A stretch of DNA of 64,000 bases from Streptomyces sp. DvalAA-14 (lineage in GTDB: Bacteria > Actinomycetota > Actinomycetes > Streptomycetales > Streptomycetaceae), in NCBI RefSeq assembly GCF_900091855.1, contig NZ_FMCH01000413.1, positions 1-64,000 on the forward strand, read 5' to 3'. Below, in pieces: positions 33,910 through 64,000 of the stretch. The notes beneath the pieces are model-generated. The model was given only the letters and a program-made list of their open reading frames with translations, had not been told where the DNA came from and did no database searches. Both the position numbers and the translations under genes were made by a program. Numbering within the stretch: position 1 is the stretch's first letter; every line of letters starts with the position of its first letter.

Positions 33910-35193
33910 ATGCGTGAAGCAGTTCCGGTGGATCGTAGCGCCATGCCCACCCCCCCAACTGCGATCGACTTGTTCAGCGGGGCAGGAGGCGCCTCCCTCG
34001 GACTGGTACAGGCGGGATTCGACCTTCGCCTGTCAGTTGACTTGCACCCGACGTACGGCGAGACTCACGCAGCCAACCTTCCGGGAGAATTCCTGCCCGC
34101 AGACCTTCGGTCGCTCGACGCCAGCAAAGTGGCGCAGGCAGCCGATCTGGGAACCCGGGGGCTGGATCTCCTCTTCGCGGGCCCACCATGCCAGGGCTTT
34201 TCGATGCTCGGATCGCGAGTCGTCTGGGACGAGCGCAATAACCTGTACCTCGAGGTGCTACGTCTAGCCTCTGAGCTCTCGCCCCGAGCCATCGTCATCG
34301 AGAACGTCCCGGGGCTACTCACTCTCGGCGGCGGGGCCTACCTCCGAGCCATCCTGGAGGGGCTCAACGAGCGTGGCTACAGGGCGGCGTGCGCAGAACT
34401 CCTGGCTGCGAGCTACGGAGCACCACAGATGAGGTGGCGCCTGATCATCGTCGCCTGGCGGCGCGACCTGGACATCCCTGCAGGGTACGGATTCCCCGCC
34501 CCCAGCCACGGCCGTAGCCGCATCGGTGATCTCTTGCCCAACGTCACGATCAGCGCCGCGGAGATTGCTGGCTTCGTGACCACACGCGAAGCCCTCGGAG
34601 ATCTGCCGCCGATCCAGGCCGGCGAGCAAGTCGAAGAGTACGCAGGCACACCAGCTGGGGCGTATCAGCTGGCGATGCGCGAAGGGCTCACGACTGAACT
34701 CTTCAATCACTACGCCGCCAAGCTGACGGAGGCGAATCTGGCACGCCTGTCTCTTCTCAAGCCTGGCCAGGACTGGCGCGACCTCCCCCACGACATGTTG
34801 CCACCAGGGATGCAGCGAGCCCTGCGAAAGGATCACACCAGGCGGTACCGGCGTATGACCTGGGACGGGATCCCGCGGTCCGTAGTGACCCGCTTTAGGG
34901 ACCCCAAGACTGGCGAGTACACGCACCCTGATCAGGACAGGACCATCTCGATCCGGGAGGCGGCGCGGCTCCAAGGTTTCCCCGACCGGTTTGTGTTTCA
35001 TGGCACTCGCTCAAGCCAATATGAGCAGGTCGGCAACGCAGTACCCGTACCGCTTGCACAGGCAATCGCGAAGGATGTCCTAAATTGCCTGAATGGAGCG
35101 CTTGGCAAGCGCCTGGAGCAGCCGTTCAGGCGCCGGCCGGTGCAGGACATCGGCATGCACGGGGAACTCGTGGAGCAGGGCGTGCTCATCTGA
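33910..35193 (+). CDS. C5-cytosine DNA methyltransferase
   Basis: 427 residues with all main motifs: I DLFSGAGGASLGL, IV GPPCQGFS (catalytic Cys94), VI ENVPG (131-135), VIII QMRWR, IX TISIREAARLQGF and X QVGNAVP. It transfers a methyl group to cytosine in a specific sequence and protects DNA from the nuclease next door. A shorter start at 33943 (MPTPPTAIDLF) is possible. The NotI-like gene follows 45 bp later, so the pair is a type II restriction-modification unit. The target sequence is not known. Confidence 0.94.
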   Translation: MREAVPVDRSAMPTPPTAIDLFSGAGGASLGLVQAGFDLRLSVDLHPTYGETHAANLPGEFLPADLRSLDASKVAQAADLGTRGLDLLFAGPPCQGFSMLGSRVVWDERNNLYLEVLRLASELSPRAIVIENVPGLLTLGGGAYLRAILEGLNERGYRAACAELLAASYGAPQMRWRLIIVAWRRDLDIPAGYGFPAPSHGRSRIGDLLPNVTISAAEIAGFVTTREALGDLPPIQAGEQVEEYAGTPAGAYQLAMREGLTTELFNHYAAKLTEANLARLSLLKPGQDWRDLPHDMLPPGMQRALRKDHTRRYRRMTWDGIPRSVVTRFRDPKTGEYTHPDQDRTISIREAARLQGFPDRFVFHGTRSSQYEQVGNAVPVPLAQAIAKDVLNCLNGALGKRLEQPFRRRPVQDIGMHGELVEQGVLI

Positions 35194-62338: not shown

Positions 62339-62806
62339 ATGTCGCCCACCGCGTCCTCGCCCGCTGTCGCCGCGCGTATGAGTCGCCAGTCCTCGCGCGA
62401 CACCGCCCAGGAAGTAGCGGTGCGACGCATTCTGCACAGCCGGGGATTCCGCTATCGGGTCAACGCCCCCGTGCCTGGGATACCGAGACGGACCATAGAC
62501 ATACTCTTCCGCGGCCCGAAGATCGCAGTCTTCCTGGACGGTTGCTTCTGGCACGGTTGCCCCACGCACGCGACCAGCCCGAAGGCCAACGCGGAATGGT
62601 GGCGGAGCAAGCTGGACCGAAACATGGCTCGGGACCTGGAAACGACCGCGCATTTGGCCGCACTGGGGATAACGGTGTTGCGGTTCTGGGAGCACGAGAC
62701 GCCGGAGGATGTGGCACGGAGAGTGGGCCACACCGTCCGCCCGGAGCAACCGGTGGGTCCTGACGGCCAGTTCGAGGCTAACCTTGGCCCGAGCGGCACG
62801 GGTTGA
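62339..62806 (+). CDS. vsr: Very short patch repair endonuclease
   Basis: 155 residues with the Vsr hallmarks: RRTIDILFRGPKIAVFLDGC (catalytic Asp54), FWHGCPTHA, then NAEWWRSKLDRNMARD. It nicks DNA 5' of a T:G mismatch that arises by deamination of a methylated cytosine, so it normally accompanies a C5 methyltransferase. Here it precedes a methyltransferase-like gene and the start of another by about 50 bp and 1 kb. Its recognition is therefore likely that of the adjacent methylase. Start ATG 62339 has a TGAGG upstream. Confidence 0.93.
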   Translation: MSPTASSPAVAARMSRQSSRDTAQEVAVRRILHSRGFRYRVNAPVPGIPRRTIDILFRGPKIAVFLDGCFWHGCPTHATSPKANAEWWRSKLDRNMARDLETTAHLAALGITVLRFWEHETPEDVARRVGHTVRPEQPVGPDGQFEANLGPSGTG

Positions 62807-62854
62807 CGCCGAGCGGGTGCGACGCGGAGCCCGACCGCCCAGGGGGGGTTGGGC

Positions 62855-63814
62855 ATGGCAGCGGGTAGATTCTCGTCGCTGGAGATCTGCTCCGGCATGG
62901 GGGCACAGGCGCTCGGCTTGGAGCGTGCCGGTTTCGACCCGGTGATGTTGATCGACACCAACGACGCCGCCTGCACAACGATCAGCCGGAACAGGCCGCA
63001 CTGGGATGTACGCCGCCTGGACCTCATCGACTTCGATCCGGCCGAGCACCCCGAGACCTACGATGTGGACCTGCTCAGCGGCGGTCTGCCTCGGGTCAAG
63101 TCCGCAGCCGCCGTCCGACGTGCCGAGGACGAGGCCGAGCGAGGCCTTTTGCGGGCCGCCGTATTGCTCCTGACTGCCGTGCACCCGAAGGCGCTTCTGC
63201 TGGAGAACGTCCCCGACCTGATCGAGAAGGACGCCTTTGCGGGGGATCGCTCCTGGATCACGGACGAGCTCGCGCACGCGGGCTATTCATGCCACTGGAA
63301 GGTTCTGAATGCCGCTGACTTCGGAGTCCCCCAGAACCGCAGATGCGGTTTTCTGATCGCCTTCGCCGATACGCTCGACGCCCGATTCTCCTGGCCCCAG
63401 GGCGACGGTCGACCGGCCCCCACCGTCGGCGAGACGCTCGGAGCGTCCATGAGCGCCCACGGCTGGCCCGGCGCGGAGCGTTGGGCCAAGCACGCTGATC
63501 GGCCCGGTCCGGCTCTGGTCGGTGGCTCCGACCGTCGGGGCGGCGGAGATCTCGGGCCGACGGGCAGCAAGAAGGCGTGGGAGTCGCTGGGCGTCAACGG
63601 CAACAGCCTCGCCGACGATGTTCCGTCCGCCGATTTCCCGGCGGACGCGCTCCCCAAACTCACGGTCCGCCAGGCCGCGATGATCCAGTGCATCCCGGAG
63701 GATTGGAGTATTCACGGACGCAAGACCGCCGCGTATCGCCAGGTCGGCCACGCCATGCCGCCTCCGCTGGCCGGCGTTGTAGGCCGCGCGATCGCCGACG
63801 CCCTGCCCCGTTAG
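62855..63814 (+). CDS. C5-methyltransferase-like protein lacking the catalytic cysteine
   Basis: 319 residues. Motif I LEICSGMGAQALGLERAGF, motif VI ENVPD (117-121), motif VIII PQNRRCGFLIAF and motif X QVGHAMPPPL are clear. At motif IV, where C5 methylases have PC, the sequence is GGLPRVKSAA with Arg80 in place of the catalytic Cys. The second Arg of motif VIII is also changed. So the protein alone should not methylate DNA. The start at 62855 has a run of AGGGGGGG directly upstream. Its neighbour at 63824 looks like a normal methyltransferase start, so the two could be subunits. Confidence 0.85.
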   Translation: MAAGRFSSLEICSGMGAQALGLERAGFDPVMLIDTNDAACTTISRNRPHWDVRRLDLIDFDPAEHPETYDVDLLSGGLPRVKSAAAVRRAEDEAERGLLRAAVLLLTAVHPKALLLENVPDLIEKDAFAGDRSWITDELAHAGYSCHWKVLNAADFGVPQNRRCGFLIAFADTLDARFSWPQGDGRPAPTVGETLGASMSAHGWPGAERWAKHADRPGPALVGGSDRRGGGDLGPTGSKKAWESLGVNGNSLADDVPSADFPADALPKLTVRQAAMIQCIPEDWSIHGRKTAAYRQVGHAMPPPLAGVVGRAIADALPR

Positions 63815-63823
63815 GATCTCCGC

Positions 63824-64000
63824 ATGCACTCGCCCGACGACACCGTTCCGCCCGAGATCATCGACCTCTTCGCCGGACCGGGTGGGTTGGACATGGCCGC
63901 GCACGCGTTGCGCCTTCCCGTGACCGGCATCGAGTTCGACGACGACGCATGTGCCACTCGGCGCATGGCGGGACTTGCGACCGTCTCGTGCGACGTACGG
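63824..64000 (+). CDS. C5-cytosine methyltransferase, N-terminal fragment (cut by window edge)
   Basis: 59 codons are visible from ATG at 63824, ten bases after the previous stop. The sequence opens with EIIDLFAGPGGLDMAAHAL, motif I of C5 methylases, then VTGIEFDDDACATRRMAGL, a motif II-like acidic residue. The catalytic motif lies beyond the window. The tight spacing to the catalytically odd neighbour suggests co-expression. Confidence 0.85.
   Translation, partial: MHSPDDTVPPEIIDLFAGPGGLDMAAHALRLPVTGIEFDDDACATRRMAGLATVSCDVR

Follow-up and report, generated by a model that had tools for sequence, protein, structure and literature searches.

A C5-methylase homologue without its catalytic cysteine as a probable DNA reader in an actinobacterial defence locus

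Why should a gene cluster maintain a C5-methylase homologue that has lost its catalytic cysteine immediately upstream of a complete C5-methylase? The question is raised by one end of the 64,000 nucleotide stretch of Streptomyces sp. DvalAA-14 DNA analysed here (the window). A defence cluster of ∼19 kb runs from a Vsr gene at 62339 to the DrmB gene at 81697 on the contig, where contig coordinates are the same as window coordinates, and the window ends inside it. The cluster starts on the plus strand with Vsr, the methylase homologue (M1) and the second methylase (M2), continues on the minus strand with DUF6339 (PDC-M33C), M33B and the XRE-GHKL protein M33A, and ends on the plus strand with a fusion of a sacsin-type ATPase with a ResIII helicase, a UvrD helicase, DrmA and DrmB. 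Its borders are ordinary as a MerR regulator lies to the left and an ABC-2 type protein and an acetyltransferase lie to the right. The sacsin-ResIII helicase gene, outside the window at contig ∼74420 (L002:14420), carries a single-base difference within a run of A compared with its relative L091. This shifts the reading frame and therefore the copy of the system examined here may be broken or mis-sequenced. The Vsr-type mismatch endonuclease gene (62339..62806, plus strand, 155 aa) matched TIGR00632 with 98.8 bits (cut-off 97.85) and PF03852 with 7e-16, in agreement with the preliminary description of the locus. The window contains another C5-methylase at 33961–35079 (PF00145, E 1.6e-57) with an intact PPCQGFS.

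M1 (62855..63814, plus strand, ATG start) is a protein of 319 aa whose match to PF00145 (E 1.2e-41) spans the whole Pfam model. Its predicted fold (AF2 pLDDT 92) matched M.HaeIII, M.HhaI and DNMT1 in Foldseek. The C5-methylase fold and motifs I, VI, VIII, IX and X are all present, motifs VIII and X being partly altered, but the PC catalytic cysteine of motif IV is absent and M1 reads DLLSGGLPRVKSA at this place. Codon 80 (63092..63094) is CGG, and the resulting Arg80 falls on the catalytic Cys when M1 is aligned with 49 Cys relatives, GGLPRVKSA in M1 being opposite GGVPCPPFS in the relatives. In a HMMER alignment, too, the GGLPR stretch falls where M.HaeIII and M.HhaI have their motif IV region. 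Motif I (residues 9–22, LEICSGMGAQALGL, 62879..62920) keeps its glycines, with G14, G16 and G21 invariant, and motif VI, which contacts the base, keeps Glu117-Asn118 (ENV, 63203..63208; 58/58 in the Arg group). Thus the earlier account of a 319-residue protein having motifs I, VI and X but an Arg in place of the motif IV Cys is borne out by the alignments. Its inventory of motifs was incomplete in that two further losses went unmentioned. In motif VIII (QNRRC, 63332..63346), Q160 and R162 are kept but the second Arg, residue 164, is gone, and motif X (AYRQVGHAMPPP, residues 293–304, 63731..63766) reads GHA instead of GNA as Asn299 has become His.

The preliminary description had proposed that GGLPR-type variants be sought in other genomes. 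The motif IV Cys was found to be replaced in 61 distinct relatives (58 with Arg, three with Ser and none with Cys), whereas the sister group has Cys in 49/49. In the first loci collected, Arg was present in every relative of at least ∼50% identity. A class-wide sample brought more Arg sequences and the three Ser sequences, the latter in the same gene context. Codon 80 is Arg in all the relatives of at least ∼50% identity that were read save a few with Ser. The 53 distinct Arg sequences have a mean identity of 55% (minimum 38%), Arg80 is among their 50 invariant columns, and the residue is encoded by five different codons (CGG, CGC, CGA, AGG and CGT). A sequencing error at codon 80 is ruled out by these five codons and by the Arg or Ser of the relatives. 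The losses at motifs VIII and X follow the same division, since Arg164 is found in 0/61 non-Cys and 49/49 Cys sequences and Asn299 in 4/61 and 49/49, the Asn being lost from the remaining 57 non-Cys sequences. The non-Cys clade keeps Glu117 (60/61), Gln160 and Arg162 (61/61 each), the motif I glycines and a target recognition signature, GG[SA]xx[RH]GGxDLG. In M1 this signature (PALVGGSDRRGGGDLGPTGSKKAWE, residues 219–243, 63509..63583) is common to the M.NgoMIV relative (PTLVGGSKKHGGADLGPTRSKRAWA), and two of the Ser proteins read PTIVGGSKKHGGADLGPTRTKRxW, almost identical to that relative. With catalytic residues lost and the recognition part kept, the chemistry of methyl transfer appears to have been abandoned and the DNA recognition part held. 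Judged from these residues, it is nearly certain that M1 is non-catalytic. Structures with DNA exist, by their titles, for M.HaeIII C71S and M.HhaI R165N, therefore the loss of such residues alone does not abolish binding.

A tree of 110 sequences splits the 61 non-Cys rows from the 49 Cys rows by a single branch (100/92; 100% of bootstrap trees). As other C5-methylases have the Cys, this unrooted tree is most naturally read in the direction of loss. The dN/dS ratio is 0.07–0.15 for M1 in seven close pairs and 0.13–0.24 for M2. Taken together, the sequences indicate that M1 is under purifying selection and that the loss of Cys is old and happened once, with Arg and Ser interchanged afterwards. 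The dN/dS values rule out reading M1 as a pseudogene. Five or more actinobacterial families have retained a non-Cys M1. The analysis as a whole used one genome per species, draft contigs and neighbourhoods limited to 15–20 kb. In samples taken across the phylum and the class, the non-Cys type was found in few actinobacterial families only, and all the other matches read were Cys types. Three plasmid relatives in which the motif was read (L125–L127) are also Cys types.

The gene for M2 starts at 63824, nine bases past the stop codon of M1, on the plus strand and continues beyond the window to contig 64942. Read past 64000, it encodes a complete C5-methylase of 372 aa with an intact GGPPCQ (GGPPCQTFTVAG) at motif IV, so the second methylase noticed earlier is indeed a methylase and not an unrelated protein. 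An intact-Cys methylase lies directly downstream of M1 in 51/53 Arg loci, the two exceptions being one locus ended by the contig end and one with M2 elsewhere in the locus, and an intact M2 is present in every complete non-Cys locus. Three types of M2 are found beside M1 (27 of type a, as in the window, 14 of type c and 10 of type b). M.AquI and M.EcoHK31I also have two adjacent C5-methylase genes, but in those cases a single enzyme has its motifs divided between the genes, a difference already pointed out in the preliminary description. Here M1 and M2 are both full length, each spanning motifs I to X, which rules out a split two-subunit enzyme. Lone M2a-type methylases are found on phage-like Streptomyces plasmids (L151, L170 and L173), with two in tandem in pSAM1, and these could serve as counter-defence against such systems. 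A Tsukamurella plasmid (L152) carries an M2a-like methylase, UvrD, DrmA and DrmB without M1, largely the effector set of the present cluster but lacking the dead methylase.

An alternative explanation is that M1 serves M2 as a subunit that activates it or provides specificity, as DNMT3L is for DNMT3A, DRM3 for DRM2 or one half of a two-subunit C5-methylase for the other, in which case an M1–M2 heterodimer would modify DNA and M1 would have no role in restriction. The usual adjacency of the two genes on one strand agrees with this, and a study of Arabidopsis (PMC2965745) gives DRM3, a catalytically mutated paralogue, as required for the function of DRM2. However, M2 has all of its motifs plus a recognition region of its own, the M1 tree shows no fewer than five exchanges among the three M2 types, M2a and M2b have relatives elsewhere without M1, M1 is fused to DUF6339 and not to M2, and in two genomes M1 and M2 are at opposite ends of the locus, M2 there being beside DUF6339 or Vsr. 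We therefore consider the subunit explanation unlikely. The earlier suggestion of a specificity or regulatory partner survives in part. A non-catalytic partner fits well because the Cys loss is ancient, happened once and is under selection, and because the locus always contains an intact methylase. A partner dedicated to the neighbouring M2 fits less well because of the exchanges of M2 types, the occasional placing of M2 at the other end and the fusions with DUF6339. M1 seems to be a partner of the defence machinery no less than of the methylase.

Nearly all of the non-Cys loci carry DUF6339. As counted with small seed alignments, which also underlie the effector counts, DUF6339 is present in 43/46 distinct Arg loci, rising to 44 after one locus was read further, and in 0/29 Cys loci; two loci (L006/L092 and L055) have no DUF6339 within the stretch read. 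By reading frame length, 23/53 rows have DUF6339 joined to the M1 N terminus, which implies three or more changes on the tree; in the four cases scanned, both domains were confirmed by Pfam. Two Ser loci have the gene order M33A-M33B-M33C-M1-M2 on a single strand, which shows a possible origin of the fusion. A model of DUF6339 (L002:4982-5893) is all-helical and confident (AlphaFold pLDDT 89) and found no match in the PDB (best E 0.2), therefore the structure gives no function and DUF6339 is possibly, going by the model, a new fold. Two effector sets occur beside the same core, either SacHel-UvrD-DrmA-DrmB or MzaB-MzaC-MzaD, and a few loci have both. In L094/L008 and L017, effectors of the Mza type and of the sacsin-helicase type surround a single M1–M2 core. 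The Cys locus L060, which has Cys, M2b and MzaB/MzaC without DUF6339, could be akin to an intermediate.

The probable target was approached through neighbouring restriction enzymes. Among the nearest Cys relatives of M1 with a known neighbour, in Neisseria gonorrhoeae the gene after a Cys methylase with 44.6% identity to M1 is NgoMIV (1fiu, E 1e-188), and on pROB02 of Rhodococcus opacus the neighbours of a Cys relative include a homologue of NaeI (1ev7, E 8e-79) and Vsr. Both NgoMIV and NaeI cut GCCGGC. On two plasmids, from Mycobacterium paragordonae and Rhodococcus antarcticus, methylases ∼49% identical to M2b stand between Vsr and homologues of NgoMIV (1fiu, E 7e-101 and 4e-97), and the recognition region of M2b and M2c is common to these NgoMIV-adjacent methylases. 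The M2b evidence was sought after the reader model described below had already been formed. The two sets of neighbours both point to GCCGGC, which suggests that M1 and M2b/c, although their recognition regions are unrelated, have one site in common; NgoMIV adjacency leaves unspecified which cytosine M2 methylates. This does not extend to the M2a of the window, as the phage-like plasmids bearing M2a relatives contain no annotated restriction enzyme from which to take a target. Most of the Arg proteins have H228R and R237G in the recognition signature, and their site may have shifted from GCCGGC.

Our preferred explanation, with a probability of roughly 0.58, is that M1 is a pseudo-methylase that now reads DNA for a phage-defence system guided by methylation. 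M2 would mark the host's own sites and M1 would bind sites of that kind that lack the mark, probably flipping the target cytosine without being able to methylate it. M1 would then signal via DUF6339 and the XRE-GHKL protein (M33A/B/C) to recruit the helicase and nuclease machinery, namely the sacsin-ResIII helicase, UvrD and DrmA/DrmB here and MzaB/C/D elsewhere. Vsr would repair the T:G mismatches arising from the 5-methylcytosine made by M2. The support for the reader role is the association and fusion of genes, and the existence of dozens of relatives without the catalytic residue but with the recognition part suggests that M1 only reads and M2 marks. A broader proposal is that a class of actinobacterial defence systems separates the reading of 5-methylcytosine from its writing. 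In such systems a dead but conserved C5-methylase, either fused to DUF6339 or coupled with it, would license two unrelated effector sets at sites protected by an exchangeable second methylase having a different recognition domain for the same target. This we put forward tentatively, at slightly less than even odds.

Three other explanations can be set against the reader model. M1 might act chiefly by binding DNA to regulate transcription of the cluster, just as certain C5-methylases repress the operons that encode them, with the dead active site sparing the promoter from methylation. Lost catalysis with a kept recognition signature would suit such a role, but sites like GCCGGC should be common in G+C-rich genomes and would make a poor operator, an XRE-domain protein, M33A, is already present in the cluster, and repeated fusion to DUF6339 is not expected of a regulator, all of which makes this improbable. 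Less probable again is that Arg80 performs a new DNA chemistry, such as a different modification or the removal of a base. The Arg is constant across 58 sequences and the motif I glycines and ENV are kept, but three members of the clade in the same context carry Ser, which weakens Arg as a strict new catalytic residue, ENV has become ETT in two and QNV in one, and the motif VIII and X residues are lost. Finally, that M1 is a decaying methylase without function, as three lost active-site residues might imply, is contradicted by selection on M1 as strong as or stronger than on M2, by the 50 invariant columns over 53 sequences, by the lack of stops, by repeated fusion and by the spread over families, and can hardly be maintained.

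If the reader model is correct, M1 would be a bacterial counterpart of pseudo-methylases of the DNMT3L/DRM3 type. A dead methylase with a predicted target beside an exchangeable writer would mean that recognition and modification can be separated gene by gene, which bears on the discrimination of self from non-self in DISARM-like and GHKL-ATPase systems. The label 'DNA cytosine methyltransferase' attached to M1 is a warning for annotation as the protein is probably not an enzyme. Full-text searches of the open-access literature for DUF6339 and PDC-M33 returned no paper and no description of the M1 family there, though absence from that literature is not proof, and the passages found of a 2025 survey of YprA-family defence systems contain no dead C5-methylase.

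Several known systems resemble parts of this locus. The closest relatives of M1 itself are the M.NgoMIV-type C5-methylases of GCCGGC restriction-modification systems, with ∼44% full-length identity, the same recognition signature and Vsr as a frequent neighbour. However, the known members keep the Cys, the motif VIII Arg and the motif X Asn and are found without M2 or DUF6339. As in class 2 DISARM, DrmA (NF038325, 994 bits, above the cut-off, E 1e-298) and DrmB (PADLOC, 4e-63) adjoin a C5-methylase. Unlike DISARM, the cluster has the additional sacsin-ResIII helicase, UvrD, DUF6339, XRE-GHKL protein, Vsr and dead methylase. The one model of the DrmC phospholipase-D nuclease used, PDLC02592, had no match in the genome, and the genes after DrmB are ordinary. 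A PADLOC match to the DruM model of Druantia type II was rejected as a generic methylase match, no further Druantia component being identified. In DISARM, methylation represses activity and sensing has been proposed for DrmA (PMC9142583), which would make a separate reader unnecessary; the two ideas are compatible. The sister loci of M1 resemble the Mza systems and the MORC/paraMORC restriction-modification operons (Iyer et al. 2008, PMC2292703) in bringing together a GHKL ATPase, a Z1 helicase, DUF4420, a C5-methylase and Vsr, and it is in these loci, not in the cluster of the window, that MzaB, MzaC and MzaD are found. A division into a dead and a live methylase is not described for those parent operons; a search of that paper's text for 'inactive' and 'cysteine' found neither word and no dead methylase. 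The nearest working precedent for the reader role of M1, by analogy, is BrxX (PglX) of BREX, in which a methylase fold detects unmodified DNA on behalf of a large complex. Besides being a methylase, BrxX senses the DNA of phages, and BREX defence depends on DNA binding by BrxX (PMC11842806). It differs from M1 in being an active adenine methylase of an unrelated family, and it is reader and writer both, whereas in the present locus these roles would be divided between two proteins.
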